Notes under the pieces: model-generated
Databases searched by the model: none
Seen by the model: only the letters and a program-made list of their open reading frames with translations
Told to the model about the DNA's origin: nothing
Source: Deltaproteobacteria bacterium
GTDB lineage: Bacteria > Myxococcota_C > UBA6777
Assembly: GCA_002731275.1 (NCBI GenBank)
Contig: PCBK01000165.1
Coordinates: 62,001-126,000, forward strand
Direction of reading: 5' to 3'
DNA: 64,000 nt
Shown here: piece after piece, positions 3,586 through 19,726 of the stretch
How positions within the stretch are numbered: the stretch's first letter is position 1
How the letters are laid out: the number at the start of each line of letters is the position of its first letter
Position numbers and translations under genes: made by a program

Positions 3586-4926
3586 TCAGATCTCGTTTTC
3601 TTCTCGCTCGACGAGTGTCTTGATCTGATCGAGGAATTTACGGCCAAGGGTGGGGTTGGTTTGGTTGATGAATGCGGCGAGACCTCGAAGTTGTTCGAGA
3701 CTCTCCCCTGACTTGTGGGGTTTGCCATTCAATCGGTTGTAAATGCCGGCTTTGACTTGGCGGACGACTTTTCGAGGGACACGAGACGTTGTTTTTTCCT
3801 CGGAGGGTGTGGGGTTGACAATCAGTCCTGTGACTTTTTGTCGGTTGCATTGTCTCATGACGTGTGTCTTTTTGGGGTGGCGTCTGAAGCCCTCAGCCCG
3901 GATGACTTTCTCCGAGAGCCGGAGAAGTGCACCGATGTTGATGTCCGTGTCGTTTGTGGAAAATACGAGATCATCGGCGTATCGAGAGTAAGACCAGCCG
4001 AGTTTTTTGGCGAGTCCACTCATGCGTCGGTCGAGTCTCATACAGACGATGTTTGTGATGGTCGGGCTGGTGGGGGCACCTTGTGGCAAGCTCCTGTGGG
4101 AGAGTGACACATGGTACATTTCACCATCGTGCTCGACCTCTTTGCGTTTGGGTTCTGTACAGATAAGTGCCATGACAGTCGCGACTTGTTCTGGGTACCC
4201 AATTTTGCGAAAGAGTCCTTTGACACGAGGAAATGTCAAGGTTGGGAAGAAATCTTTGAGGTCCATCTTCACGACGATCTTTCTCCCCGCGTGTTTATCT
4301 GCGTGGGAAGCGATCGAGCGCCCGGGGACGAAGCCGTGGGCCGCGCCGTGGATAGGCATACGATCGAGGATCTTGTGGAGGATGGTGTGTTGTGCCTTCT
4401 TCAGCTTGGGTCTTGGCGCGGAGATGACGCGCTCTGAACCATCTGACTTAGGGATTGTAAATTGTTTGTAGTGGGGATTTTTGGTGGCATCGCGATGATA
4501 CGCGAGCCAACGCATCTCAGGCAACGTGAGTGACAAAAACTCCGCGAGAGCATCGACATGTTCGATGTTCGGAAGGTCGTTGTTTGAGATGCGTTGTTCG
4601 CGGTTCTCGATGTCGAATTTATCGGCGTCAACGAGATCGTTGTAAAATACGCCGTTGCCGAGGTGGACGAGGTGAGTCGCGCAGTAGGCTTTCCACGTCG
4701 CTTTGCGCACCACTTTTTCGGCTTCAGCTTCCGCGCGTTTGGACTTTTTGTACGCGGATTTCTGTTTTTGGTTCATTCGTGAGGTATCGTTGTTGTGGAC
4801 CGCCAAACCCTGTGCAGAGAGGGTTTGTTGGATGTAAGGCTCGATACCACCTGCTTTCTTTATCTCTTCCCAAAGTTCGACGCGCTGTTCGTGTGTCTCA
4901 GTGGGAGGGACTTTGATCTTGCTCAT
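3586..4926 (-). CDS. Retron-type reverse transcriptase (myxobacterial Mx162-like)
   Basis: 446 residues. A basic N-terminal extension of about 145 residues, typical of myxobacterial retron RTs, precedes RT motifs 1-7: MDLKDFF with catalytic Asp222, PQGAPTSP (281-288), YADD (316-319) and a KVTGLIVN motif (VTG at 365-367). HGAAHGF (193-199) corresponds to the NAxxH retron motif. NAxxH plus VTG distinguish retron RTs from group II intron and DGR enzymes; no maturase or HNH domain is present. The expected role is synthesis of msDNA from a structured ncRNA. The start has AGGAG about ten bases upstream and lies 35 bases after the upstream WGR gene, so the two are probably co-transcribed; this leaves no room for an msr-msd directly upstream. 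Last gene of the retron-like operon. Confidence 0.9.
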   Translation of the reverse strand: MSKIKVPPTETHEQRVELWEEIKKAGGIEPYIQQTLSAQGLAVHNNDTSRMNQKQKSAYKKSKRAEAEAEKVVRKATWKAYCATHLVHLGNGVFYNDLVDADKFDIENREQRISNNDLPNIEHVDALAEFLSLTLPEMRWLAYHRDATKNPHYKQFTIPKSDGSERVISAPRPKLKKAQHTILHKILDRMPIHGAAHGFVPGRSIASHADKHAGRKIVVKMDLKDFFPTLTFPRVKGLFRKIGYPEQVATVMALICTEPKRKEVEHDGEMYHVSLSHRSLPQGAPTSPTITNIVCMRLDRRMSGLAKKLGWSYSRYADDLVFSTNDTDINIGALLRLSEKVIRAEGFRRHPKKTHVMRQCNRQKVTGLIVNPTPSEEKTTSRVPRKVVRQVKAGIYNRLNGKPHKSGESLEQLRGLAAFINQTNPTLGRKFLDQIKTLVEREENEI

Positions 4927-4961
4927 CGGGGAACGTCTCCTGGATTCTGCTTGAGGTTCGC

Positions 4962-6809
4962 TTACGCTTCTGTATCGATGTAGCCTTTGTTGTGCAATCC
5001 GTCGATTCTCGCGAAGTATTCCTGTCGTGCTTCTTCGGGGCTGTTGAAGTGGAGCTTTTGCGTGCGCAGCTCAGTACCTCGTTGACCCCACTGGACATGA
5101 AGTTTTTTGTGATCGAGCGTGAGTTGGACGAGTTGTTCGACACTACCTGTACGTTTGGTGAGCGCGCGGGTCTCTGCGACGATGATTTGCCGATCTTCTC
5201 CGCTCTTTCTGAGCGCTTCTTGTGCTGAGGTTTGTCGATTGTACAACAAGAACAGCGCGAGAATATACTCCGAAGGGCCTTCTTTGAATTGCGTCTTTTG
5301 AAACCACGGACTCGAGCATTTGGCGCGTGTTAGGCGGCCGTCGAGGGTGAGAAAGAAGCTGGACTTATACGTCCGGTATGCTTCTTTATCTTCGATTTCA
5401 CCGTGGATTTCTGTCCCCGATCCGATCACATGGTTGAGCTTTGTGATCGTTGCGGCGTCTTTTTCGACGAGCTGGTGAGCGAGTTTTTCTCGATCATTGC
5501 GGAACAAGAGTTTCTCTGTCTCAATGGGTTGTGAAGAGAGCTCTCTGTATCGGTACACATCGCTCGCGAGGTCGTAGATGACTCTTCCTTCTCGACATTC
5601 GAGTTGGAGGGCCGCTTCGATGTTCTCTTTTGAAGCCCCCAGGTCATCGACAAGGTCTCCCATCGAGACGAACCAGGATTGTTGGAGATTTTCGCGCAGT
5701 TGTCCACGCAAAGAGTCATCGGCTTTGTCTCTTGGGAACATCAACTCGAATTGTACGCTGGAAGACCAGTCGTTGTTGGTCCAGCCGCTCAATCCGAGCG
5801 TGAAGGTCATATCACCCATGTCGAGGACATAAAATGTCGGTAGACCCGATCCAAGTGTGTAGACATGGATGGTTTGGGTGAGGGGGAGCAGCCTCGCGAG
5901 CAGTTGAAGACGTTTGCGACCCCACGTGCGGATGATCTGGGAATCCCTGCCTTGGTAGGGAGCACCTTGTCCAAAGAAGACCTCTTCCCAAGGCTCCAGA
6001 ATGATGCGGGGGGGTTGTTGTGGAAGCAATTCGAAACGCAATCCACGCGGACTTTTCTTGGCTTTGTTCATGCGCAAGTAAGTGAGCGTGTTGTACATAT
6101 CGATGGGGTCAAGCTCAAAGTGCGTCATCGGCAAGGAAGCCGCGGACTGGACCTGCAGAAAGCCACGAAGCCAACTGTCCGGGATCCGTAGGTCTTTGTG
6201 AAAGTCGCCTTCTTCTTTGGAGGCGGTTTTGTCAAAGCTCTCTGGATCGATCGCGAGATGGGCTTTTTTGTACGTACGAAGGTTTTGTAGCGAGTTGTAG
6301 AAACCTTCGGAAAAGTCGATGTGGGTGGTGCCATAACGAGGATCTTTAACATCCTCGAAGACGTCCCATTTGATCGAGAGTTTCGCGTATGTGGATTCAT
6401 CTTTCGAGAAGACTTCGAGGAAGGTCTCATCGGGATGAATGGTGATCAATGGATCGAAGATGTCGGTATTTTGCGCTTCATCTTCGTCTGATTGCAGCTT
6501 GTCGAGGATCGCCTCCTCTGCTTTTTTGAGGTTCTTCGCAGAGATTTTGACGCTGCTATCTTTGAGCGCCTGCCTTTGCAGATATTGCATGTAAGCAGAG
6601 CGGTCTTTGGCTTTGTATCGGAAGTCAGAGCCGATGACGTGGTACAACGCGCTGAGAGCTTCGCGGAAACGAAGGGGATCACGCAATGTCCCCTGAAAGA
6701 AGGTCGGTGTGCGTTGACCATCAGGGGACAGGTGGATCGCGATGTTTTCGAGATCGGCCTGGACATAGCTAGGGTGATGATATTGAAGTTGAACTTCAGT
6801 AAATGACAT
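4962..6809 (-). CDS. WHSWIM-type protein with degenerate SWIM finger and C-terminal WGR domain
   Basis: 615 residues. The N-terminal ~380 residues match no family I can name. A winged-helix-like segment lies at about 383-422, followed by a SWIM-like stretch (490-525) with the usual spacing and flanking hydrophobic helix. The zinc ligands CxC...CxH are mostly lost: Cys498 is kept, while the others are Ser500, Ser513 and Tyr515 (GPSEY where relatives have GPCEH). A WGR domain (HVQWGQRG, about 564-612) closes the protein; in PARP1 this domain contacts nucleic-acid ends. A GAGGAG ribosome site precedes the ATG, 15 bases after the WD40-HEAT gene. WHSWIM proteins accompany type XIII retrons, which agrees with the RT immediately downstream. 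Domain calls are from visible motifs; function is inferred. Confidence 0.75.
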   Translation of the reverse strand: MSFTEVQLQYHHPSYVQADLENIAIHLSPDGQRTPTFFQGTLRDPLRFREALSALYHVIGSDFRYKAKDRSAYMQYLQRQALKDSSVKISAKNLKKAEEAILDKLQSDEDEAQNTDIFDPLITIHPDETFLEVFSKDESTYAKLSIKWDVFEDVKDPRYGTTHIDFSEGFYNSLQNLRTYKKAHLAIDPESFDKTASKEEGDFHKDLRIPDSWLRGFLQVQSAASLPMTHFELDPIDMYNTLTYLRMNKAKKSPRGLRFELLPQQPPRIILEPWEEVFFGQGAPYQGRDSQIIRTWGRKRLQLLARLLPLTQTIHVYTLGSGLPTFYVLDMGDMTFTLGLSGWTNNDWSSSVQFELMFPRDKADDSLRGQLRENLQQSWFVSMGDLVDDLGASKENIEAALQLECREGRVIYDLASDVYRYRELSSQPIETEKLLFRNDREKLAHQLVEKDAATITKLNHVIGSGTEIHGEIEDKEAYRTYKSSFFLTLDGRLTRAKCSSPWFQKTQFKEGPSEYILALFLLYNRQTSAQEALRKSGEDRQIIVAETRALTKRTGSVEQLVQLTLDHKKLHVQWGQRGTELRTQKLHFNSPEEARQEYFARIDGLHNKGYIDTEA

Positions 6810-6824
6810 GATGCGCTCCTCGGC

Positions 6825-9800
6825 TTAGCTTGCTGGCTGGGCAGTTCGTTTATCACGTTGACGAAGTGCACGACGCCAGGCGCGATAGGCCGCAATGCGG
6901 ATGGCCTGGGGGCTGTTGTCGTTTTGGCGAATACTGTCAAGTGTATGGATCGCTGTTTCGTCGGCTATTTGGCTCAAAGCTTGAATCGCAATGTTTTGGG
7001 TTTGTTCATCTTGCTCACCGCTCAACCATTCAGCAAACAAGCCACTCTGACCTTTGGCGATCAATTGCGGTACGAGATCTCTCATCGCGGTGTGGGATGT
7101 CCATTGTTCTGCGGTCAGAGCTGTCTTGGCAGGTTCTGCTGGGAGCAAGTGTCGACTCGCACCTGGAAGTCTCGGCAAAGATACGAGGAGAGTCGATGTG
7201 TCCTCTTCGATCTGCGAGATGGCCCATACTGCGTTCCGTCGGACTTTCTCCGTGGGATGTTCGAGCAAGTTTTGCAATGCCTCTGTACTTCCTTTGGGAG
7301 CAGCGTTCTTGGCTTTCCCGAGGTTTTGGCTGGCTTGTGCGAGCACTTTTGCAGGCGTGTTGTCCGCTTGCAGCGCGGATAATGAACTCTCCAGCGCTTT
7401 CTCCGGTGCCAGCTGCTCAAGCGCCCACAGAGACGTATTCCAAATCTCTATCAAGCGGTCTGTCTGCTCGGACTTCCAGGACGCGTTTACCTTTTGCAAG
7501 GTCTCTTCGAGTCCTTTCGCGGCCTTGTGATCGCCGAGTTGGACGAGGATATACGCTGCGTTGAGTCGGACTCTTGCGTAGTCATCTTCGAGCGAAGCCA
7601 GCAACCCATCAACAGGTGATACTTCACGCTCCAACAATCCTTGCACAAGGATACGTCTTAACTCGTCATTCACGTATGGACGTTCTGGCTCGTTCTCCTC
7701 TTTCCAGTCCACTGACGTCGATTGGAAGTGAAGGAACATGTCGCTGTCGGAGACCGCGAATCCGGGTGTTGGCAATCGTCGTAAAATATCGACCGCGGGT
7801 GCTTGTGTCGCGATCACTTTTGCAGACTTTTTGCGCTTCTCGGTATCGTAAGACGCGATGTTTGGTGAATCGAAGACCAGCATATGAGGTGTGAGGGAGG
7901 ACTCCCCGTGGATCTTCATCAAGGCATCGAAGGCAGCGTTTCGAACATCTGTGTAGTTGTCTTCGAGCAATGCCACGAGTGTACTCTCTGCTTCAGGTGA
8001 ACCGATTTCACCTAGCTGTTCAGCACCTGTCTGTCGGACAGACCATCCACTCCAATCGTTGGCTTGTTTGATCGCGTTGATCAAGACAGAGAGGGCTTCT
8101 TCGCCGGCGAGATAACGCAGTCCAATCAGCGCACGACAACGCATGTCGGTGTTGTAACTGCTCATCTGTTCGTTCAAAATACCGCGAATCTCGACAGCGC
8201 GTTCGGGCGTTGCGAGGCGTCCGAGTGCTTCGGCTGCGGCATTTTGCGCGGCGTGATAGTCCGCTTCTGGCTCAAACAAAGGCATCAAGTATTCGAGAGC
8301 CCTTGCATCACCGAGGATACCAAGCGCATCAACTGCTTTGATTTGTTCACTGGAGTCGAGGGAGGTTTGGTACGTTGTCAAGAGCACTGGGAAGGCTTCC
8401 TGAACATCGTGGTTGGCGAGCTCAACAGCGGCTTCCAATCTGATCGCTGGATCAGAGTGTGAGAGGCTTTGTTTGAGTGGCTCAATGGAAGTGTCGTATT
8501 TCGGGATGCGGAACGCGATCACTTCACACGCTTTTCGGCGAAGCTCCTCGTTTCGATCGTACAAGAGTTTGGCCAGGATGGCTTGTACTTCTGGACGTTC
8601 GACTTTGCGGAGCTTCTCAACAGAGGCCTCTCGAATATCCTGGCTCTTCGACTGCAGTGCACGCTCAAGATAGTTGACGTACAGTTCGTCATCTCTCGTT
8701 TTGCTCGGCCCTGCGAGTTTCAAGAGTGATTCAAATGCAGCGTGGCGCTGGTAATAATCTCGCTCAAGCTGTGCGATAAGCCACTCCGAAGCTTTGGTAT
8801 CGCCGAGATCCCCAATGGAACGGATCAACATGTTGATGTCGGCTGTCCCCTCTGGATCTTCTTCGATACGTTGTGTGAACGCTTCGTAAGTGTTGTCGAC
8901 TTTGAGTTGGACGAGCGATTGCGCCGCTCTTCGTTGGATATTCTGGTTCTCGTCGTAGAGGAATTCGACAAGGAAGTCGAAGGCTTTGGCTTCATTTCGA
9001 TTGGCGAGTGCCTCTGCGGCTTTCAATCTCAGTTGATCATCATCACTGAGCAACGCTTCGCTGAGCGCGTGGATGACTCTTGGATCCTCTGAGTCGAGCA
9101 GCTTGTTGACAACGCGCAAGCGTACATCCGAGTACTCGGAGCCGAGTGCGAGGATAAATGGCTCCAGACTCTCTTCGCCGTAGAACGCTTGGAGCGATTC
9201 GGAGGCTTTGATACGGATCTCTTTGACAGGTGATTGAAGCGCCTTGATCGCGAGCTGCTTGGCTTCTTCTGAGTTGTTCTCGACAAGAGCGTCGAGCGCG
9301 ATACTCCCAACGTCCGCTTGTGTGCCAAGAAGCGCAATACTGTAAGGCGTGAGTGCGCCGTCTTCAAACAAGCTCTGGACGGCTTTCAACGCGGCTTTTC
9401 TCTGATCGCTGTTGTTGCTGTCGTTCATTGCGTGTTGCAAGGTCGGCAAGAGCGCTTCTTTCTGGAAGAAGGAGAGGGCACCGAGCCGTTGAAGTCCCTC
9501 AATGGCTTTGATCTTGAGTCTCCAGCTGACGCTGGATTGACGGATCAGGCCGACATATGCACCAAACACGATTTGTTCGAGTTCGGGGGATTCTGGTGCT
9601 TTGTCTTTGCTTGCTGCGCGAGGTTTTCCTCCCACTTTGACGTGGCGAAAACGACGTGGGTAATACTGCGCGAAGTGTTCTGGGTCGTTGAGCAAGAACA
9701 ACAGATAGACAGCTTCATAACGCGTATCTGCGCTGTCGCTGTTGAGGGAGTCAAGCAGTTTGGGGACGTGCTTCTCCATAAACGCTTTGTGTTCTTTGTC

Positions 9801-12800
9801 CTTGTCCGAGTTCCCGCTTGGAGCGTTTTTCATCAGGACATCGATGACGTATGCCTGGAATGCTTCTCTGTCCGGTCGTTTTTCCAACGCCTCGGCTGCT
9901 TGCAACCTGATCTCGTCATGAGCATTTCTCAGCGCTTGCATCAACAAGTCAGGTGCCTGTCCTTTGACGCTGTGGAAGTACTCTTTGGCGAGAAGGAGTT
10001 GGAAGATCTTGCCACGTGTGCTGCCGTTGTTGTCCGACAAGAAGGCCATCCAACGATGTGTCAGCTTGTCGTCAAGAGCGTAGAATGCCTGCGCACGCTT
10101 GTTCGCGGAGATCGATGTTTGTTCCTTGAAAATGTAGGCTCCTTTACTGGAGCCTTGGCGCGCGAGACCTTCCGCTGCCACTCTTTGCAGCTCTGCGTCC
10201 TCATGTTTGAGGAACGATTCGAAGAGCTCTGTGTGTGAAGCATCTGCGCAATAAACGATGGCCTGAAGGGCTTTGCGAAGCAGGGCGAGATCGTCAGTCG
10301 CAAGGAACACTTTGAGGTGTTGTACACAGCTGGGGCTACGCAGGACTTGCAGGAGTTTGATGATCTTCTCTCTGTAATCCGCACGTTGTGTTTGCTCTTT
10401 TTGCGGCAGCTTCGCGAAGCAAGCCATGAGTTCCTTCTCTGAGGTGGCCTCGATGCCTTGCTTCTCAGCAAACGATTTCAGCGCTTGTTGTTCTTCTGCA
10501 AGGTAGTCCGCTGCGACTTGAAGCGCACGTTCATCTCCGACCTCCGCGAGGTAATGAGCGGTTTGGAGACGGATATCCCAATGTTCAACCTTGAGGGTCT
10601 CGGCGAGCAGATCAGCGTCTTTGCTGAAACGCTGTAAGATCGCGTCGAGCGCGTTCTTGCGGGTTTCCAAATCCTGGTCGTTGAGGGCCTCCAAAAGAAG
10701 CGGTCGGACTGCTTTGTCCGGGTAACTATGGAGGTTGTTGACTGCGACACGTCTAAGCTGGGCAAAATGAACTTTGAGGGCTTCTGCGTGTGCGCCTGGA
10801 TCTTTTGCCTTGTAGAGCTTTTGCAGCGAAGAGTACGCGTAGTGGCGGATACTCTCATTGCGATCCGAGAGCAGCTCGACGAAGGTCTCGTGTACCCAAC
10901 CCTCACCTTTAAAGGCGAGACTTTCATCCATCGCTTTGATGCGAAGGTTTTCGGGTCTGGCTTTCATCGATGGGACTAGGCATTTTTCGGGAGAAGATTC
11001 GAAGATATTCCAGAGGATCTTGAACGCCTCGTCGTGGACACTTGAGGAGTCGTCGTTCAGAGACTCCAGCAGCAACGCGATGGCTTCCTCACTTGGCGCT
11101 TTTTTGCCTTTGGGGGCGAGCTTTTGGAGGGTGCGGCTTCGAATGTCTGCTTGCTGACTGCCGAGCCCAAGCTGCGCAAATTCGAGGGATTTGCTGACGA
11201 GGCTGGAGAGGCTGTCAAACGCGACGTCGCGGACTTCTTTCTGGTCATCATCGAGCATGCCAACCAAACAGTCGACACCGCGGACGTCGCCAAGATTTGC
11301 GAATGCCTGCGCTGTCTCTTTGCGGAACGTCGTGTTGGACTCGTGGCTGAGCTGCAGCAATGTACCGAACGCCCTGAGATCTTGAAGACGAGCAAGACTT
11401 GCAGCCGCACGCAGAGCGATATCCGTGTTGTGGCTGCTTACGCCGAGCAACAGTGGCTGGAGTTGTTCGTCAGAGAGATCGAAAGGCTCAGGTTTCTTTT
11501 TCTTCGCCTTTGTCTTCTTGGGCTTTTCTTCTTCCTCACTTTGGGTTTCTTCAAGCTCCTGAAGCGCTCTGTCCATGTGTTCGTCACGTTCGCTGAGTGC
11601 TTTCGCGAGCGGTGGAACCGCTGCGATCATGACTTCGAAGGTCAGTCGCCGGAGCGACTCATTTGAGTCATCGAGGAGACCTGTAAGGATGGGGCGAAGC
11701 TCTTCAAGGAAGGCCCATTGGTATCGGTAGATTCGTCTGATAGCTTCGAGTTTTAGGTCGTTGCTACCTTGTCTCAACGCGAGAATCAGGGGCTTGGGTT
11801 CTGGCTTCGTCTTTGTCGAAGGGTAGATACTTTCGAGCGCATCGAGAGCTGCAACCTGGACTTCGAGCTTGTGGTCGTCGAAGGCCGAGAGGATCAGTCG
11901 TTGTGCCCTTGGAGAGGACTTGTACAGCTCGACAAGTTCTTGCACTGCGAGTTTACGAAGGTCGGCTTCGTTTGACTTGAGTGCGCTGGTGAATGGTGAC
12001 AGTGATTGTTGACCTTGCAAAACACGCAAGGCTTCAAATGAGGCAACCCGAACGGTGAAGTGGCTGTCATTGAGTGTTTTGCGAAGCTCATCGATCGGCT
12101 TGCGGTGCGTTGCTGTCGCGAGGATGTCAGCTGCAAGCTTTCGGACTTCTTCTGCACTATCGGCTTGTAAGTGGTAAAGAAGAAGGTCGAAAACATCACC
12201 ATCACGTAGGTGATTTTTGAGCACTTGCAGCGCTTTTTCCCGTTGCTCACGACGTTTGTTTTCAAGTTGTTCTGCGTAAGTATGGAACGCCGACGAGACA
12301 TCTAGGTAGAGGCCTTGAAGCTCGGTTTGATCGTTGCATTGCCATCCACGAATATGTCTATCAATGTTGGCGGAGAGGAGTCTTGTACCGTCATCGTGCT
12401 TGAGCGCGACGAGCGAGGTGTGGACGCCTTTTCCGTCGGTGATCGTTTTGGGCTTGCGCTTGTTGGCGAGTGGCCAGATCTTGATCGTTTTGTCGTCTGA
12501 GCTTGTGAACAGACGTGGGGGAATGTCTTCGCCGTTGGCGTCTTGGTAAATCGGACCAAGCGCCATAGAACGAATCGCGGCTTCGTGGGTGTCTTTGGGA
12601 GCGCGGTCTTCAAATTCGACCTCACCTTGAAGGTACCAAAGCATGATCGAGCGATCTTCACCTGCGGAGATCAATCTGTACTCATGTGGATGCATGATCA
12701 TGGTGTAGATGGCACCATTATGACCGGGCATCTCGCGAGTGACTTCTCCTGTGGCCTGATCAAACACGCGAATGATCGCGTCTTCACCTGCAGCAGCGAG

Positions 12801-13292
12801 CCAGCCGCCTTTGGGGTCTGCGACGAGTGTGTAGGCGGGCACACCTGCGGGCCACACGTACTGAACGTCGGTTGATTGACCGTCTGTGACACTCCATCCT
12901 CTGATACGACCGTCTTTTCCACATGAAAAGAAGGTCTTACCATCGGCTGATACAGCAAGCGCAGTGACTGCATCGCTGTGTGCGTCGAGTGTTGTGGGAG
13001 ATGCGTTCTTTTTGTCAAACGCCCAAATGGAGACTTGGCCATTTTCATGCCCTGCCACAATTTGTTTGTCATTGGCAAACAGCAAACTCGTGACAGTGTC
13101 TGGTGCGTTTGTGAGTGTATATTTGGTCGCTCCATCATGGGTCGAAAACACTGTGATTTGTGGAGCGTGTTTATCTGGACGACTACCTGAACTCGCAGCG
13201 AGTTCGCTATTTGGGTGCAGCGCGATGGCGTGCAATTGTTCCCAATGCGTCGAAGAGTTTTGTTTTAGCTTGATCGCGGACTGATCGGACAT
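6825..13292 (-). CDS. Giant WD40-HEAT repeat protein (2155 residues)
   Basis: About residues 20-330 form a WD40 propeller; recurrent blade ends such as GRIRGW, AIIRVFD, SIMLWY and TIKIWP are visible. A charged helical linker (340-365) leads into a very long array of HEAT/armadillo-type repeats reaching the C-terminus, interrupted near residue 590 by a Glu- then Lys-rich stretch. Recurrent repeat phrases include VRxxAxxAL and LGDxRA. No enzymatic motif, signal peptide or membrane segment is seen, so it is most likely a cytosolic scaffold or target-recognition subunit. A strong GGAGG site precedes the start. It sits between the BRCT/HEAT gene (53 bases) and the WGR gene (15 bases), fitting the ARM-repeat partner of type XIII-like retrons but far larger than I would expect. 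Confidence 0.88.
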   Translation of the reverse strand: MSDQSAIKLKQNSSTHWEQLHAIALHPNSELAASSGSRPDKHAPQITVFSTHDGATKYTLTNAPDTVTSLLFANDKQIVAGHENGQVSIWAFDKKNASPTTLDAHSDAVTALAVSADGKTFFSCGKDGRIRGWSVTDGQSTDVQYVWPAGVPAYTLVADPKGGWLAAAGEDAIIRVFDQATGEVTREMPGHNGAIYTMIMHPHEYRLISAGEDRSIMLWYLQGEVEFEDRAPKDTHEAAIRSMALGPIYQDANGEDIPPRLFTSSDDKTIKIWPLANKRKPKTITDGKGVHTSLVALKHDDGTRLLSANIDRHIRGWQCNDQTELQGLYLDVSSAFHTYAEQLENKRREQREKALQVLKNHLRDGDVFDLLLYHLQADSAEEVRKLAADILATATHRKPIDELRKTLNDSHFTVRVASFEALRVLQGQQSLSPFTSALKSNEADLRKLAVQELVELYKSSPRAQRLILSAFDDHKLEVQVAALDALESIYPSTKTKPEPKPLILALRQGSNDLKLEAIRRIYRYQWAFLEELRPILTGLLDDSNESLRRLTFEVMIAAVPPLAKALSERDEHMDRALQELEETQSEEEEKPKKTKAKKKKPEPFDLSDEQLQPLLLGVSSHNTDIALRAAASLARLQDLRAFGTLLQLSHESNTTFRKETAQAFANLGDVRGVDCLVGMLDDDQKEVRDVAFDSLSSLVSKSLEFAQLGLGSQQADIRSRTLQKLAPKGKKAPSEEAIALLLESLNDDSSSVHDEAFKILWNIFESSPEKCLVPSMKARPENLRIKAMDESLAFKGEGWVHETFVELLSDRNESIRHYAYSSLQKLYKAKDPGAHAEALKVHFAQLRRVAVNNLHSYPDKAVRPLLLEALNDQDLETRKNALDAILQRFSKDADLLAETLKVEHWDIRLQTAHYLAEVGDERALQVAADYLAEEQQALKSFAEKQGIEATSEKELMACFAKLPQKEQTQRADYREKIIKLLQVLRSPSCVQHLKVFLATDDLALLRKALQAIVYCADASHTELFESFLKHEDAELQRVAAEGLARQGSSKGAYIFKEQTSISANKRAQAFYALDDKLTHRWMAFLSDNNGSTRGKIFQLLLAKEYFHSVKGQAPDLLMQALRNAHDEIRLQAAEALEKRPDREAFQAYVIDVLMKNAPSGNSDKDKEHKAFMEKHVPKLLDSLNSDSADTRYEAVYLLFLLNDPEHFAQYYPRRFRHVKVGGKPRAASKDKAPESPELEQIVFGAYVGLIRQSSVSWRLKIKAIEGLQRLGALSFFQKEALLPTLQHAMNDSNNSDQRKAALKAVQSLFEDGALTPYSIALLGTQADVGSIALDALVENNSEEAKQLAIKALQSPVKEIRIKASESLQAFYGEESLEPFILALGSEYSDVRLRVVNKLLDSEDPRVIHALSEALLSDDDQLRLKAAEALANRNEAKAFDFLVEFLYDENQNIQRRAAQSLVQLKVDNTYEAFTQRIEEDPEGTADINMLIRSIGDLGDTKASEWLIAQLERDYYQRHAAFESLLKLAGPSKTRDDELYVNYLERALQSKSQDIREASVEKLRKVERPEVQAILAKLLYDRNEELRRKACEVIAFRIPKYDTSIEPLKQSLSHSDPAIRLEAAVELANHDVQEAFPVLLTTYQTSLDSSEQIKAVDALGILGDARALEYLMPLFEPEADYHAAQNAAAEALGRLATPERAVEIRGILNEQMSSYNTDMRCRALIGLRYLAGEEALSVLINAIKQANDWSGWSVRQTGAEQLGEIGSPEAESTLVALLEDNYTDVRNAAFDALMKIHGESSLTPHMLVFDSPNIASYDTEKRKKSAKVIATQAPAVDILRRLPTPGFAVSDSDMFLHFQSTSVDWKEENEPERPYVNDELRRILVQGLLEREVSPVDGLLASLEDDYARVRLNAAYILVQLGDHKAAKGLEETLQKVNASWKSEQTDRLIEIWNTSLWALEQLAPEKALESSLSALQADNTPAKVLAQASQNLGKAKNAAPKGSTEALQNLLEHPTEKVRRNAVWAISQIEEDTSTLLVSLPRLPGASRHLLPAEPAKTALTAEQWTSHTAMRDLVPQLIAKGQSGLFAEWLSGEQDEQTQNIAIQALSQIADETAIHTLDSIRQNDNSPQAIRIAAYRAWRRALRQRDKRTAQPAS

Positions 13293-13345
13293 CCGTTCCT
13301 CCGTATATGCTGTGTCCGAGGGGAAACCTGTTTGGTTACCGGGTC

Positions 13346-16300
13346 TCAGTTGAGCGTGGCGTTCGAATTTTGAGCTTCAAGACGGGTCAGCGCAACAAGG
13401 CACGCCATGGATTCACTGTGTTGGCAGGAACCCAAAAATTTCTTGAACAAGGGCGTCAGAGCGCTGGAAAATTGCTCGTCCTGAAGAGCCAGATCACGAG
13501 CTAGCTCGATCATGTGGATCTTGGCTTTGCTGTTCGAGATAGGTTTCGAAGCGCCTGATGGACGTTTCTCCAGTCTTCCAGGTGGGATGCCGAAGAGAAC
13601 TGCGCGGACAAAGTCGATCAGCAATTCAGGTGATTGAGGCGTTGTATGTTTGGATGAGGGGCGGATCTTGGAGCGATGGTCATCTTTTGGAGACCACTCT
13701 AGCGAGATGGCCGGATTGCGATATCGCATCCAAAGCAATTTCACTGCCTGTGTGCGTACATCGCGGTCGGGTGACTCTGCGAGACGGATGATAAAGCGAT
13801 CACCTTCCAGTACATCGTAGTACTTTTCGACCAGCGCCATCCCTGTGTATCGGACTTGTCGTTTGCGACTCTCAACGAGGGCAAAGACGAGCTCTGGATC
13901 CAACTCCTCTGGAGCGAAGAAGTACTCTTCTTTGGTGTCTGGATCGTCGGAACCCAAGAGGGCGCTAAGTGCGAAACTACGCACGGCTCTGTGGGGACTT
14001 TCGCAGAGGTTGAAGATGTCTGTTGCTGGAACACTCCAAGTACGCAATTCGTAACGTGCGATGTCGATACCGAGGCGCTGTACGTTAGCGCGCTCATCTT
14101 CAAATAAGGGGAGAAAAAGACTGGCTTTGTAGACACTTCTTGGGATGACTTGCTCGCCTTCGAGCGCTTCGCCCGTCATGGAAGGTCCGAGTTTGAGGTG
14201 GCGATGTTTCAAAAAGTCGATCGCAAACTGTCTCGTGTTTTCGAGCGTCGCTTCATCTGTTGCCATGCGGAACAGTCGGAGGAAGCCTGCTTCTGTTCCT
14301 ACGATATCGATGTCCGCCTTCGCGGCACCGCCTTCGGAGAGCATGCGGAGCCAGTCCGTCTCGCTGATCACCTCGATAGGGAGTCCTTCTTCTCGGAGGG
14401 CTTCTGCCTTCGTGATCTTGCTGCCTTTTTTGCCACCTGAAAACAGTGGGGAGCCTTCATCACCGACGACGAGATAATCGAGCTTCTTTGTGACGCTTTT
14501 GGCGATTACTCCGTCAATCTGCTCGACTTTCTCTTGGGCTTGTTTGCGCGTGAGGTTTTTGAGTTTTCCTGTAAACAGGAAACTCTTTCCTTCGAAGGGA
14601 TTGTCAGCAGGTTGTTGTGTGCTGGCTGTGTCATTTGTTTGAGAGGAGACCTCTGTAAGCTCTGCTTCTCTCGCAAAGTCAGCTGCGTTGAAGTTTTGTT
14701 GGATATACCCAAGTGCGTAGCTTTTGCACGTCTCATTTGGGTGTTCAAGCAACGTCAACAGCCAGTCGAGACCGATCTCTTGTGGAGTGAAGCGTTTGGG
14801 GTGATCGATGTAGGTGATCGCAAAGTTGAGCATGTGCTCTGGGTAGCTAAAGTTATCAAGCCACGCTTTGTCAGTCCCTTTGATCTGCTTGACCCATTCG
14901 CTTTCACGCCATGCTTCTGCACTGAAAAGAGTCTTTACCCAGTCAAGGTCGAGCTGCTTGGTGCTGATTTTTTCGGCATTCACCCAACTTTGAACGTTCC
15001 ATTGGTAATTGCTGTGCAAGAGCGCTTGCTTGATCCAGTCTCCATTGAGGTCATGAACGTGTTTTTCGATGTTCTCGATCGCGTAGTCTCGGACCATGTA
15101 GCTGTAGTAGCCTTTGTCGAGATTGGGATCTTGGAGCAATGACTGGAACCATTGTGCTGTGAGTAGTTTGGCTGGGAATTCCTTCTTCAAGTACTCCAAA
15201 CCAAACTGGATGAGGTAATAGTCATCATTAAAGAGAATGGGTTTGAACCACTCAAGTGGGATCTCACTTGGACGAAAACCTTTCTTGAGTTTTTTCTTCG
15301 CAAGGTCTCTCGACTGGCTCAGCAAGCAGAGCTTTTGGATGGTGTCGAGTCCAAGGTCTTCGCGAGCATCTTTTTTCGCGAGCAGACTCAACGCAAATTC
15401 TTGCAGGTCGCTGTGTTCGGACTCCAGCCAAACCATCATTTGAGCGATCGTCAATGCATCGCTGTAGTCGCGAGTATAGGTGATCGCGTATTCACGCACA
15501 TCGCTGTTGGGGCTGATCAGGAAGTGATCGATGATCAACTCGTGAAGACCGAGCTCCTTGAACTTTCCTTTTTGCCAGGAGGGGTTTTCCTTGATCAGCT
15601 CCATGACAAATGACTGGACTGTGCCAAGGGGACGCTGTCCGAGTCTGATCAGAAATTGGAGATCAAGCTCACGCAATCTGGCTTTAAAGTGGGTTTGCAA
15701 ACCTTCAATGCAAAACTTGGCGACTCTGTCTGCGCGACAGAGCAATAGCAAGTCGAGTAGTGGTTCTGGAGAGGTCTTCCAGGACTCGGAAAATGCGCTG
15801 TGTTTTGTCAACTCAGTTGGCATTTCATTCCAGTAGGTGCCGTAGTTGAAGGACGCGCGACCGTACTGTCTACCTTCGTAGCTGTTTTTGTGGTTGTGGA
15901 AGAAAATGTGGTTGAGGATCCACAGCTTGGTCAGTTTGGTTTTGTCGCTCCAGTTGTCGTAGTTCCAGTCGGGATACCAACGCATAAACTGGGAGGCTGC
16001 GTAGGGGTAGATGGAGGGCATGCCTTGTCCGACACGGCGCAGGAAGCGCCAACCTCTGCGACGAAGATAGGAGGTGGTGCCTGTGGTCACTTCATGACCG
16101 TATTCATTCGCGGCGCTGATCGTGTCCATGCGCGAAGCGATCGCACCGAGCATTTCGTAGTCGTTTCTTTGTTCTGCGATCTTGAAGATGCGTTTGAACG
16201 CGCGCCAGGGTCCCCATTTGAGCTGCATACTGGAGATCAAACGAAGGAGTGTTTGTCTTCCCCACTCGTGATCTTCTTCGTAGAGGTCCAAAAACACGCT

Positions 16301-16591
16301 GTCGAGGTAGAGCCTTGGTGGCAGTGGGAACTCTTGGGCTAGGTACTTAGCCCAGACTTCATTTCTGTACTGCATGCGCTCTTCGCCTGGATTGTACTTG
16401 TACAAGTTCCAGTATCCGGTGAGTTGGGAGCGTAAGTCGTAAAAGCTCATGGAGCCTTCAGGAGCGTTTTCTGGAGGGGATGGATCCGGTTGGTTCATAA
16501 AGTTGTTAAACTTTTCGATGAACGCTGGATCGCGTTTTTCAATCGCTGATTTGATATCTTCAAGCGTGATCTCATTGGATTTAGGAGCCAT
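13346..16591 (-). CDS. HEAT-like repeat protein with central BRCT domain
   Basis: 1081 residues. The first ~640 residues are helical, with irregular HEAT-like repeats rich in Trp and Leu. A BRCT domain of the NAD-dependent DNA ligase/RFC1 kind occupies about 660-745: FEGKSFLFTGKL, then a DYLVVGDE core and a conserved DW near its end. More HEAT-like helices follow to the C-terminus. BRCT domains bind DNA ends or phosphopeptides. GAGG lies close before the ATG. It is the first gene of the four-gene operon ending in the reverse transcriptase, so it probably serves the same system, perhaps recognising DNA. I see no nuclease, ATPase or ADP-ribosyltransferase motif. The repeats are certain; the precise family is not recognised. 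Confidence 0.82.
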   Translation of the reverse strand: MAPKSNEITLEDIKSAIEKRDPAFIEKFNNFMNQPDPSPPENAPEGSMSFYDLRSQLTGYWNLYKYNPGEERMQYRNEVWAKYLAQEFPLPPRLYLDSVFLDLYEEDHEWGRQTLLRLISSMQLKWGPWRAFKRIFKIAEQRNDYEMLGAIASRMDTISAANEYGHEVTTGTTSYLRRRGWRFLRRVGQGMPSIYPYAASQFMRWYPDWNYDNWSDKTKLTKLWILNHIFFHNHKNSYEGRQYGRASFNYGTYWNEMPTELTKHSAFSESWKTSPEPLLDLLLLCRADRVAKFCIEGLQTHFKARLRELDLQFLIRLGQRPLGTVQSFVMELIKENPSWQKGKFKELGLHELIIDHFLISPNSDVREYAITYTRDYSDALTIAQMMVWLESEHSDLQEFALSLLAKKDAREDLGLDTIQKLCLLSQSRDLAKKKLKKGFRPSEIPLEWFKPILFNDDYYLIQFGLEYLKKEFPAKLLTAQWFQSLLQDPNLDKGYYSYMVRDYAIENIEKHVHDLNGDWIKQALLHSNYQWNVQSWVNAEKISTKQLDLDWVKTLFSAEAWRESEWVKQIKGTDKAWLDNFSYPEHMLNFAITYIDHPKRFTPQEIGLDWLLTLLEHPNETCKSYALGYIQQNFNAADFAREAELTEVSSQTNDTASTQQPADNPFEGKSFLFTGKLKNLTRKQAQEKVEQIDGVIAKSVTKKLDYLVVGDEGSPLFSGGKKGSKITKAEALREEGLPIEVISETDWLRMLSEGGAAKADIDIVGTEAGFLRLFRMATDEATLENTRQFAIDFLKHRHLKLGPSMTGEALEGEQVIPRSVYKASLFLPLFEDERANVQRLGIDIARYELRTWSVPATDIFNLCESPHRAVRSFALSALLGSDDPDTKEEYFFAPEELDPELVFALVESRKRQVRYTGMALVEKYYDVLEGDRFIIRLAESPDRDVRTQAVKLLWMRYRNPAISLEWSPKDDHRSKIRPSSKHTTPQSPELLIDFVRAVLFGIPPGRLEKRPSGASKPISNSKAKIHMIELARDLALQDEQFSSALTPLFKKFLGSCQHSESMACLVALTRLEAQNSNATLN

Positions 16592-16664
16592 ATGTGTGCC
16601 TCGATTCCACTAGAAATTTGAGCGACAACTTGTGATCGGTTCGTTGACGTGTGTTCTCCATTGC

Positions 16665-16693
16665 TTCACCTATCTCATTGAGATGAAAGTGAA
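16665..16693 (-). other. Small hairpin in the leader of the retron-like operon
   Basis: On the minus strand TCTC-AAT-GAGA forms a perfect four-base stem, with outer TTCA(C)/(G)TGAA arms that can pair through a small bulge. It lies between the candidate promoter and the first gene. It could be part of a structured leader or of a retron ncRNA, but it is short and no a1/a2 repeat was found to prove that. Confidence 0.25.
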
Positions 16694-16737
16694 TATTGAA
16701 GTCCTTCTGTACCGTTCTTACGTGTATTTTGCAGGGA

Positions 16738-16766
16738 AACATACCACACATCTGTGCAGATCTCAA
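16738..16766 (-). promoter_or_regulatory. Candidate sigma-70-like promoter of the retron-like operon
   Basis: Minus strand: TTGAGA (-35-like, 16766-16761), 17-base spacer, TATGTT (-10-like, 16743-16738). Transcription would start near 16730 and give a leader of roughly 140 bases before the BRCT-protein ATG at 16591. Found by eye only. Confidence 0.35.
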
Positions 16767-16777
16767 GTCTTCACTCA

Positions 16778-16823
16778 AAGATAAACGAGAGGGGGAAAAA
16801 GACCCTCTCTTTTCGATATCTTT
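16778..16823 (-). terminator. Two-part imperfect hairpin, possible terminator of the DnaJ-like gene
   Basis: Outer arms AAAGATA/TATCTTT and inner arms GAGAGGG (16809-16803 read on minus) / CCCTCTC (16793-16787) enclose a T-rich loop. It lies 64-109 bases past the stop of the minus-strand DnaJ/PATAN gene and just upstream of the candidate operon promoter. The following T-run is short, so a structured RNA element is an alternative. Confidence 0.4.
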
Positions 16824-16886
16824 TTGTGCAATGGCATGATGTTCTAGGAGGGTGTCATAACGTGTCATGTAAAGGCAGGAGGTGAT

Positions 16887-19334
16887 CTATTTTTTGCGCC
16901 GCCCAAACAGTCCTTTCTTTTCGGGTTCTTTTTTCTTCTTGGCCATTTTTAAGTATCGGACCTCACGGCTAGCTTCGGCATGTCGGGGATGTGCTTCGAG
17001 CACCTTTTCAAAGTGGCGAAGTGCCATCTTTTGATCTCCCTCATCCTTGAACACAAAGCCGAGGTAGAGGTTGGCTTTGTCTGCGGCGGAGCCTTGTTGT
17101 TCGGCTTTCAGGAGTTTTTCTTTGACTTCTTCCCGCAGTCCGTCCTTGTTTCCTTTGGGGTTTTTGTAGAGTGTCCAGGCGTACGTTGCGTTGTAGTCGC
17201 CTTCTTCGGGCATCAGTTTGCATGCCCAGTGCAGTTGCTCAAGAGCTGCTTCGTGATCTCTCATCTTGAGAAACACCATCGCTTTTGTGTAAAAGACCTC
17301 AGCTTGGGCGGCTTGGTTCGCGTATTGATGAAGTTCGGCCATCTCGGGGTCGAGTTGTGTTTCATCGTATTCTTTTCGTTGATCTTCCTTGCTCAGAATT
17401 GCGTGTGCTTCGTTGAGGTGGGAGAAGATCAGGTCCAGTTTCTTTTTGTGGGCTTCAAGGGGTGTACCTGCCACAAGATCGGGGTGAAAGGTACGGCTGA
17501 GTTTGATGTAGGCTTTGCGAATCTCGCCTGAAGAGGCGTCTTGTTTGACCTCCAAGATCTCGTAGTAGTTCGCGTCTTGTACAGCTTTGTGCTTTTCAAG
17601 GATGTTCGCGAGTAACTGTTTTTCTTCTTCATTTGGCTCCGTGCGAGCCGGAGGTTCTGTCGTGCTCGTCTCTGGGCGTGTTTTAGAGGGTGCAGAGTCG
17701 GCGCTGGGCGTTGAACGTGGTTGCATATTGGGTGGAGGGCCGATGGCGATCACAGCGGGAGGGGTTGTTTTACTGGGCTCACGTCCTGGAGGGGGTGGAG
17801 GCATGAGCACACTGTTTGGAGCCTGCGCAGTGTGGCTTGGAGGGGGAGGAGGCATTGCGATCGCTGCACTCTCACTGGACTGCGGGGGAGTCGAGGGAGG
17901 GGCTGCGGAGATCACAGCAGGCGCAGGGGTTGTCGCTGCTTGGCGAGGAGGCGGAGGAGGCATCTTGACACCCTCCGGTGCATTTGGAGGAGGAGGTGGC
18001 ATCTCAATCGCTGCGGCCTGTGAGGGTGCGTTGGGTGGTGGCCCCATCGAGATCACTGCAGGTGCTTCATGTCCTTTTGGTGAAGAAGCGTGAGCCTTTT
18101 CAGTCGATGGTGTCTGGGGTTTTTCCTGTGGTGGCCCCATTGAGAGCACTGCAGGTGTTGAGGGAGGTTTTGGGGCCACTTCTGGTGTGGGTTTATACGT
18201 GAAGGCTTTGACCTCTTCTTCTCCTTCAAGTCCCTCCAGATCTGCTTCAAGAGAAGCCGCTGTTTGTTCATCGAAATAGGGCATGTCCGGTGTTGTGGAA
18301 CGCGTCTTCGGAGGGGAAGGTGATGACTGTATCCATTGGGCGTGTTGTGGGGAGACACGGACAGATGGAGTCGATGAGGTGATCTCCGCCAAAAGCTCAG
18401 GGTCGATACCTGGCAGTGATGGGTCCGTTTTTTCTGTATCTGCGTTGGAGACAGCCTGCACATAGCTTGCGCTACTTGAGCGCGGTTGGCTCGTGACGGA
18501 TGTAAAGTCGGGTGTGGCGCTTTGGGGTCGTTGGCGTTTTCTGAGCCGTGCTGCGCTAGCGAGCTTGGGATGACTGTTTATCTCGTCAATGTCGAGTACG
18601 TCGCAGAGATGCAATATACAGACGAGCACGAGGGCTTCTGTTGTATCCAGGTACTCCTCGTCGATGAAATCATCGAGCGTGGTCCACTCTTCGATCAACG
18701 GAAGTGCCGCTTGCTCATGCTCTTCTAAGTCCAGCGCTTCGAGAGATATATCTCGAAGCTCCACAGGGCGAAGGCGTATGGCTTTGCCATCCACAGGCAT
18801 CAAAAGCTGTAGGAGTCTGTGGTCATCGTGTGATTGCCGCAGCCCGTGACCGACTATCGAGTAAGGGTTGATGTGACCTGCAGGGATGTCCAAGACCGGA
18901 GGATGTTCTGTGCTGAAGAATACGAAGTTTGCGTTGGTTTCGTAAAACAAGCGGATGAGCTTTCTTTGCAACTGTAGCGTCAGCGCGTAAATCAACTGTT
19001 CATCATTGATCACGCCGAGCTGACAGAGAACCTGACCTTGTGGGAGCTGTTTGGAGGTCATTAATTCCAGCGACTTGTAGTATGTCGCTTCGTCGATCAT
19101 GTTCCTCTCCATCAGCAACCATCCCAGGTAGTTCTCTTGTGGACCTCCTCTTGTCCCTGTTGGATATCCTTCGCTAACATATAGACGTTGTTGGAATTGT
19201 GGTGTTTCCAGGTAAAGCTCGCCCGTTTGCTTTTCGTGGAATAACCACAAGAGTAGCTGTCCCATTTGCAAGTCTTCGAATGTACCTTGCATTTGCAATC
19301 GACCGTCTTCTGTAAATTCTATTTGGAGTGGCAT
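16887..19334 (-). CDS. DUF4388/PATAN - DnaJ - TPR protein with proline-rich linker
   Basis: About 815 residues from the ATG at 19334; a longer frame reaches 19451, but the upstream 39 residues look non-coding and the PATAN fold begins with MPLQIEF. Order: DUF4388/PATAN-like domain (about 1-130, with QTGELYLE and an LGWLL segment), an acidic region, a long Pro-rich disordered linker carrying repeated MPPPPP and GPP motifs, a J-domain (YYEILEVKQDAS with the HPD triad in TFHPDL), then TPR repeats and a basic tail. The J-domain implies stimulation of an Hsp70 ATPase. PATAN-DnaJ-TPR combinations are typical of Myxococcota and are presumed to have signalling or motility roles; none is established for this protein. 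Transcribed divergently from the PP2C phosphatase gene. Confidence 0.85.
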   Translation of the reverse strand: MPLQIEFTEDGRLQMQGTFEDLQMGQLLLWLFHEKQTGELYLETPQFQQRLYVSEGYPTGTRGGPQENYLGWLLMERNMIDEATYYKSLELMTSKQLPQGQVLCQLGVINDEQLIYALTLQLQRKLIRLFYETNANFVFFSTEHPPVLDIPAGHINPYSIVGHGLRQSHDDHRLLQLLMPVDGKAIRLRPVELRDISLEALDLEEHEQAALPLIEEWTTLDDFIDEEYLDTTEALVLVCILHLCDVLDIDEINSHPKLASAARLRKRQRPQSATPDFTSVTSQPRSSSASYVQAVSNADTEKTDPSLPGIDPELLAEITSSTPSVRVSPQHAQWIQSSPSPPKTRSTTPDMPYFDEQTAASLEADLEGLEGEEEVKAFTYKPTPEVAPKPPSTPAVLSMGPPQEKPQTPSTEKAHASSPKGHEAPAVISMGPPPNAPSQAAAIEMPPPPPNAPEGVKMPPPPPRQAATTPAPAVISAAPPSTPPQSSESAAIAMPPPPPSHTAQAPNSVLMPPPPPGREPSKTTPPAVIAIGPPPNMQPRSTPSADSAPSKTRPETSTTEPPARTEPNEEEKQLLANILEKHKAVQDANYYEILEVKQDASSGEIRKAYIKLSRTFHPDLVAGTPLEAHKKKLDLIFSHLNEAHAILSKEDQRKEYDETQLDPEMAELHQYANQAAQAEVFYTKAMVFLKMRDHEAALEQLHWACKLMPEEGDYNATYAWTLYKNPKGNKDGLREEVKEKLLKAEQQGSAADKANLYLGFVFKDEGDQKMALRHFEKVLEAHPRHAEASREVRYLKMAKKKKEPEKKGLFGRRKK

Positions 19335-19726
19335 GTTGGTTCTCTTTGTAACTGTTTTTGGCGAAGTCGAGTTGTTTGAACAGGTAAGCTCGCGCAGATC
19401 ACTATACAATAATCCGAAATATGTACAAGGAAACATCAAGTATATTTGCACTCTCCTGTCGGCGAGATCAAACTTTCTTTAACTGACTGGTTGTCGTTGC
19501 CCTTGAAAAGCGTTATGATATGTCGCGCCTCGAAGGAACGCTTTCCTCAGATGAGGTTGTTTTTCACTCAGATGTTTCTCGAACGGCTTGGTGATGAAGA
19601 TGTGTTTCAGTTGCCTCGTGCTGTTCGTCCATTTTTCATAAACTGCTTCGATTGTCAGAGGTTGTTCTGTTTTGGTCCGATTCAACAAAACCCCTGATTT
19701 TTACGAGAGAGAGGAGTGTGGGGGCG
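19335..19726. other. 392-base intergenic region between divergent genes
   Basis: Between the start of the DnaJ/PATAN gene (minus) and the PP2C phosphatase gene (plus). Besides one candidate plus-strand promoter I see no RNA gene, repeat or convincing small ORF; short frames here lack ribosome sites and homology-like features. Confidence 0.5.
19491..19519 (+). promoter_or_regulatory. Candidate promoter for the PP2C phosphatase gene
   Basis: TTGTCG, 17-base spacer, TATGAT (19514-19519). This would give a leader of about 200 bases before the start at 19727. Judged by eye; no supporting conservation data. Confidence 0.3.

Follow-up and report, generated by a model that had tools for sequence, protein, structure and literature searches.

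A giant type XIII retron operon without an adjacent template and six candidate trans-encoded msr-msd RNAs in the same genome

Where is the template of a retron whose reverse transcriptase (RT) gene has no RNA gene beside it? A retron is described as one cassette that unites an RNA, an RT, and an effector. The question is raised by a four-gene operon in a 64,000-nucleotide (nt) stretch of a Deltaproteobacteria bacterium genome (contig PCBK01000165.1, positions 62,001 to 126,000; here called the window), in which an earlier reading of the letters alone (the sequence-only reading) had seen an expanded type XIII-like retron. That reading placed four minus-strand open reading frames, separated by 53, 15, and 35 nt, exactly where we find them (Table 1), but it overlooked the main anomaly: the operon and the window hold no noncoding RNA (ncRNA), and the templates lie elsewhere in several copies. 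By comparing sequences, we found the operon, no template in the window, six structured RNAs elsewhere in the genome, co-occurrence of RNA and operon throughout the clade, and stems that covary by Watson-Crick pairs only. Here, the template appears to be separate from the enzyme. Our preferred explanation, with a probability of roughly 0.6, is that this is a type XIII "giant" retron whose RT works on six trans-encoded msr-msd templates, which have a common frame and different 24-base-pair (bp) stem cores.

We scanned for relatives with an alignment of the SWIM protein, using one genome per species, and obtained 80 loci that split into two architectures. The canonical one comprises a WGR-HEAT protein of ~1,050 amino acids (aa), a SWIM protein of ~550 aa, usually a gap of 150 to 500 nt, and an RT of ~500 aa; in some Bacteroidota and Campylobacterota loci, the RT comes first, ahead of the other genes. 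The giant one comprises a HEAT(-BRCT) protein, a WD40-HEAT protein of ~2,130 aa, a SWIM-WGR protein of ~620 aa, and an RT of ~440 aa, and its genes mostly overlap or almost touch. After targeted searches, the giant set numbered 47 genomes; 37 of them are among the 379 genomes examined from Myxococcota, the phylum of Minicystis rosea. The sequence-only reading had considered that homologues of the RT might never accompany the other three genes; they were found together in ~45 loci. The four-gene order is conserved wherever the contig is long enough, although the operons of genomes G003 and G419 are interrupted by other DNA. In G003, the giant gene is separated from the SWIM and RT genes by other genes (SDR, metallo-beta-lactamase) that span ~12 kb (L013:2382-14278). 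The giant RTs form a single clade (99% support in the SH-like approximate likelihood ratio test), apart from one mis-extracted row (L153). The C-terminal tail of the SWIM protein, the site of the WGR domain, is 90 to 122 aa long in all giant proteins versus 6 to 20 aa in canonical SWIM_XIII proteins, and the BRCT insert of gene 1 occurs in 21 of 42 relatives. On this comparative evidence, the window operon belongs to a distinct sub-branch of type XIII, with one RT clade and WGR fused to the SWIM protein.

Eight giant loci have a SWIM-RT gap of 279 to 650 nt, and seven of them contain one strongly conserved RNA structure. In other giant loci, the same structure precedes gene 1 or follows the RT gene, sometimes as two or three tandem copies. 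A covariance model, R1, was built from 14 sibling ncRNAs; its 65 pairs come from a structure predicted from this training set itself, in which 48 of them show compensatory changes. Among 43 distinct R1 matches, some partial and all aligned by fitting to the model, 96.0% of the cells pair, versus 38 to 44% when partners are slid by one to three columns, and 53 pairs vary on both sides. In layout, the RNA matches a retron msr-msd: it has TTAGC or TCTAGC by its outer stem, one short hairpin, a stem that is conserved, and a terminal stem that is long. The branch guanosine of retrons usually lies within TAGC (PMC6868368). The six copies in the window genome carry TTTCGAC at the equivalent position, so their branch guanosine is one that we infer. 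The outer flanks pair in a copy-specific manner: the longest complementary run averages 9.6 with a copy's own partner versus 5.8 with the partners of others, and runs of at least 10 occur in 42% versus 1.7%. Duplex energies discriminated poorly between own and other partners, and it was the longest run that told them apart. This specificity suggests that the copies are complete units and not scraps of multicopy single-stranded DNA (msDNA).

In the window, we sought an ncRNA with inverted repeats, regular expressions, the covariance model, and comparison with the sister locus, and none was found. An R1 search with filters off returned nothing (best score 7.9 bits, E = 0.21), an Rfam search gave no match, and the first 24 kb hold no inverted repeat exceeding 19 nt. 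Neither flank of the operon contains a structure comparable to the sibling ncRNA, and the region upstream of the operon is not conserved with the sister locus. The whole operon contig, with ~50 kb on one side of the operon and 65 kb on the other, has no R1 match. Thus, the msr-msd that adjoins the RT in a retron cassette is absent from the window, and copies exist only in trans.

Six full-length R1 copies, with an a1/a2 stem and a long msd stem, are present in the genome, on contigs C83 (two copies), C135, C142, C100, and C4. They score 138 to 155 bits (E = 1.5e-38 to 1.8e-43), and the nearest is at least ~50 kb from the operon. A search with the exact frame pattern independently retrieved the same copies, and in all six the frame halves are separated by exactly 24 variable nt. 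Their frames are nearly identical, and each has a private 24-nt stem core that is Watson-Crick complementary to the other arm. The five contig pieces that bear them have the same composition as the window, which rules out contaminant contigs as their source. Their neighbors are ordinary genes (LysR regulator, Asp/Glu/hydantoin racemase family, tryptophan dioxygenase, caspase-domain protein, amine oxidase), and we found no neighbor common to the six. An RT on C83, considered as a partner of the two RNAs there, looks by eye like a truncated group II intron RT and was set aside.

This trans arrangement recurs across the sub-branch. In the 47 operon genomes, R1 matches are only non-adjacent to the operon in 22, only adjacent in 17, both in 1, and missing in 7, and in five of the last group contig ends cut the locus. 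Twelve of the 22 trans-only genomes have at least 3 kb of contig on either side of the operon, which places them beyond assembly doubt. In M. rosea, with its single complete 16-Mb chromosome, 1.9 Mb lie between the operon (0.87 Mb) and the RNA (2.75 Mb). RNA and operon also occur together: in the 379 Myxococcota genomes, a strong R1 match (>95 bits) is present in 30 of the 37 operon carriers and 0 of the 342 others (Fisher test, 4e-38), and three operon-free genomes have weak matches only, of 46 to 59 bits. Genomes G250 and G341 each carry five strong copies and, in addition, some that are weaker or cut. Three of their five matched copy pairs have the RNA in common but not the flanks, indicating that copies move; two copies are syntenic, and their stem substitutions fall in still-unbroken helices.

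Four weak R1 relatives of 196 to 199 nt (46 to 59 bits) were also recorded, at G266:C782:57039-57236, G298:C232:62520-62717, G271:C3:57332-57530, and G351:C550:4320-4515. Three of the four sit in operon-free genomes, and these relatives may be the RNA of another RT family.

The stems differ from the frame in how they evolve. Between copies of one genome, identity is 0.89 in the frame versus 0.64 in the stem (54 pairs of copies), and the uninterrupted stem has a mean length of 27 bp. G-U accounts for 20 of 1,773 stem pairs, 19 of these within four pairs of the loop, compared with 214 of 2,418 pairs in the other R1 helices. G-U pairs are normally tolerated in RNA stems. Their near-absence here suggests that selection acts on the stem as duplex DNA, or that complementarity of the arms is maintained by a process at the DNA level. 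Some 6-mers recur in the stems, such as GGGTAC (10 occurrences versus 0.95 expected after shuffling) and AGTACC (7 versus 0.46), counts that are inflated by the shared ancestry of the copies. An origin of the stem cores as phage-derived spacers was rejected, as ~30 stems compared with 50,697 phage records gave one chance 21-mer. Exact 19- to 21-mers of the genome's own six stems gave 0, 0, 1, 0, and 7 matches in IMG/VR, which lie in diverse GC-rich sequence and lack a surrounding ncRNA frame, and a search for phage-borne copies of the frame gave 15 pattern matches, none of which is the ncRNA.

If the preferred explanation holds, each of the six RNAs would be reverse-transcribed by the RT into a branched DNA with a duplex stem of its own. 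RT and msDNA would keep the HEAT, WD40, and SWIM-WGR proteins inactive as a complex, and the effector would be released once a phage enzyme bound, cut, or modified any one of the stems. WGR and BRCT domains elsewhere bind DNA breaks or nicks, as in PARP and DNA ligase; the two domains would thus be suited to sensing broken or nicked DNA, and a sensor of stem integrity fits for this reason. With several stems, one effector could watch for several triggers, so the stems are probably alternative infection sensors, a function that we infer. An antiphage role is suggested by family membership. More tentatively, the system may be a modular sensor repertoire, in which one RT and effector complex is served by trans templates that have a recognition frame in common and vary only in a duplex "bait" whose length is fixed. 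The bait would be kept Watson-Crick perfect since the functional object is double-stranded DNA, and templates could move and diversify independently of the operon, with a logic like that of a cassette repertoire.

Several observations weigh against this explanation. The outer stems are weak in several copies, the stem cores have no meaningful phage match, and a simple promoter scan upstream of one copy found no promoter. No R1 match was obtained in the sister genome G003 (86% complete), which carries the operon. The pairing of the RT with the trans RNAs draws on co-occurrence and on the sibling loci where they are in cis, and the genome also holds two other retron-like RTs (L004 and L005) and a canonical type XIII system.

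It is rather unlikely, though worth weighing, that the templates act in trans and that their stem sequence is irrelevant, any long perfect duplex of fixed length sufficing while its sequence drifts and extra copies add dosage. Perfect pairing, near-constant length, the lack of a common stem sequence, and the absence of a meaningful phage match would all be expected then, as would the single copy that is enough in many genomes; the recurrence of some 6-mers (GGGTAC, AGTACC) above shuffled expectation, even if inflated by ancestry, weighs against this reading. We consider it improbable that the scattered copies are dead, retrotransposed msDNA and that the true template lies unrecognized in the operon. 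Repetitive msDNA-like sequences have been reported in Nannocystis exedens (Lampson and Rice 1997 and Lampson et al. 2002, both cited in PMC6868368), and the copies of G250 and G341 do move. Against this stand their full length, compensatory stem changes, and copy-specific outer stems, the two syntenic copies, a window with no R1 match even with filters off and no inverted repeat above 19 nt in its first 24 kb, and an upstream region that is not conserved with the sister locus. That the six RNAs serve another RT of the genome, L005 or the double RT L004, is very improbable: such retron-like RTs do exist there, but R1 RNA adjoins giant-type operons in 18 genomes, strong R1 matches are restricted to operon carriers, and none of the six copies is on the contig of L004 (C35) or L005 (C164). 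L004 (L004:244-2400; C35:137349-139022) is a 723-aa protein with two tandem RT domains, both retron-RT-like. L005 (L005:832-2397) is a 522-aa retron-like RT whose best model is RT_XIII (3e-110); its long branch adjoins the giant clade.

The assignment to type XIII made by the sequence-only reading was supported by near full-length PADLOC type XIII matches for all four proteins. RT_XIII (PDLC02956) was top among all retron RT models for the RT (E = 2.6e-160, 532 bits), SWIM_XIII covered nearly all of gene 3 (E = 2e-189), and HEAT-ARM_XIII models did so for genes 1 and 2 (E = 0 each). Pfam agreed with the domains that had been read from the translations, namely RVT_1, WGR (weak, below the Pfam cut-off), WD40 with HEAT, and BRCT with weak HEAT. 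The idea of an enlarged operon held in part. The giant and HEAT/BRCT proteins are known type XIII parts and not additions, because PADLOC profiles already span both end to end, which rules out an unprecedented enlargement; only the BRCT insert and the WGR on the SWIM protein are features of the sub-branch. The retron motifs HGAAH and VTG are present in the RT as had been noted, and YADD as well. Across 31 aligned RTs, the YADD box never varies, nor do the two histidines of HGxxH. The solved structures nearest to the RT profile are retron RTs.

The WH-SWIM label was upheld by the whole-protein SWIM_XIII match but not by the zinc site, which is degenerate: its ligands are C-S-S-Y in the window protein and its two nearest relatives and were lost again in a second sub-branch, whereas most relatives keep an intact site. 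Given the strength of the whole-protein match, this loss is not decisive against type XIII, and to our knowledge the published definition of the type does not include zinc binding. The predicted structure of the SWIM-WGR protein (pLDDT 87.7, pTM 0.88) retrieved sliding clamps (PCNA, beta clamp) on top in a Foldseek search of the PDB (best E = 2e-6), with target TM scores of about 0.7 and root mean square deviations of 6 to 8 Å. This hints at clamp-like domains, at the level of the fold and not as a demonstrated clamp. AlphaFold models the gene 1 protein as a helical solenoid into which the BRCT region is inserted (pLDDT 87.6); the pTM of 0.60 makes the domain arrangement uncertain.

Table 1. 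Features of the operon and their positions in the window
Feature	Position	Strand	Match
Gene 1: HEAT-repeat protein with BRCT insert, 1081 aa	13346..16591	-	PADLOC HEAT-ARM_XIII (PDLC02921)
Gene 2: giant WD40 propeller and HEAT solenoid, 2155 aa	6825..13292	-	PADLOC HEAT-ARM_XIII (PDLC02919), whole length
Gene 3: WH-SWIM protein, 615 aa	4962..6809	-	PADLOC SWIM_XIII
Gene 4: retron reverse transcriptase, 446 aa	3586..4926	-	PADLOC RT_XIII
BRCT domain of gene 1 (aa 663-721)	14429..14605	-	
Degenerate SWIM zinc site of gene 3 (CSSPWFQKTQFKEGPSEY; ligands C-S-S-Y, not C-C-C-H)	5265..5318	-	
WGR domain, C-terminal in gene 3 (aa 567-613)	4971..5111	-	
RT region X motif HGAAH	4336..4350	-	
RT catalytic box YADD	3970..3981	-	
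RT motif VTG	3826..3834	-	
SWIM-RT gap, 35 nt, too short for ncRNA	4927..4961	-	
Intergenic region upstream of operon; ncRNA site in some siblings	16592..16886	-	

The giant type thus has the gene classes of the type XIII retrons known from PADLOC (RT_XIII, SWIM_XIII, HEAT-ARM_XIII, WGR_XIII), and its sibling loci carry a retron RNA family of comparable layout. It differs from canonical type XIII in its separate RT clade, its 2,100-aa WD40-HEAT partner, and a different ncRNA family, and its WGR domain is on the SWIM protein instead of the HEAT protein. Its RNA is often non-adjacent and multicopy, whereas that of canonical systems is adjacent in nearly all intact loci and usually single. With a model, R2, built from canonical type XIII RNAs, we found an RNA adjoining the operon in nearly all canonical loci with enough sequence. 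The SWIM-RT gap is where canonical type XIII loci have their ncRNA. R2 RNA is present in 20 of 20 canonical genomes, as a single copy in 18. The second, canonical type XIII system of the window genome (C95, L012) has no R2 match nearby; the genome's only canonical RNA copy (62 bits) is away from that operon, on C55 (L290:4371-4565), and is possibly a second trans case. One Acidobacteria locus (L033:11742-12688) has four canonical ncRNAs in tandem, and L076, L028, and L026 have two each.

With Retron-Eco1 (Ec86), Eco2 (Ec67), and Eco8, the giant type shares the RT sequence family and motifs, and their effectors are unrelated to its partners. In each of the three, the RT and its one msr-msd are encoded by the same cassette (PMC6868368). 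In defense retrons, RT and msDNA control a toxic effector (PMC12548924), and such control would be expected for the giant type too. A search of open-access full text found no retron with trans-encoded templates, and an earlier mention of the sub-branch is possible. The nearest precedent for scattered templates is the work on N. exedens. Lampson and Rice in 1997, and Lampson et al. in 2002, reportedly described msDNA-like repeats in this species as likely retrotransposed and partly incomplete. Here too, several msDNA-like sequences are dispersed in one myxobacterial genome, but they are full-length RNAs with a conserved frame, private stems, and outer stems. What is new is the RNA, multicopy and in trans; the kind of operon and its large proteins were already known. 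If the explanation is right, a defense system could widen its detection by gaining small RNA genes, and an RT that takes variable duplex stems of fixed length in trans could serve to produce custom DNA inside cells. Surveys for ncRNA confined to the surroundings of RT genes would miss such templates.

A PADLOC scan of five genes flanking the operon gave no match. A search for the operon on phages and plasmids returned no phage match and one distant match in a plasmid record. The upstream neighbor of the operon encodes an 854-aa DnaJ-TPR protein (window positions 16887-19451), and the gap preceding the operon contains a terminator-like hairpin (GAGAGGGTC...CCCCCTCTC).

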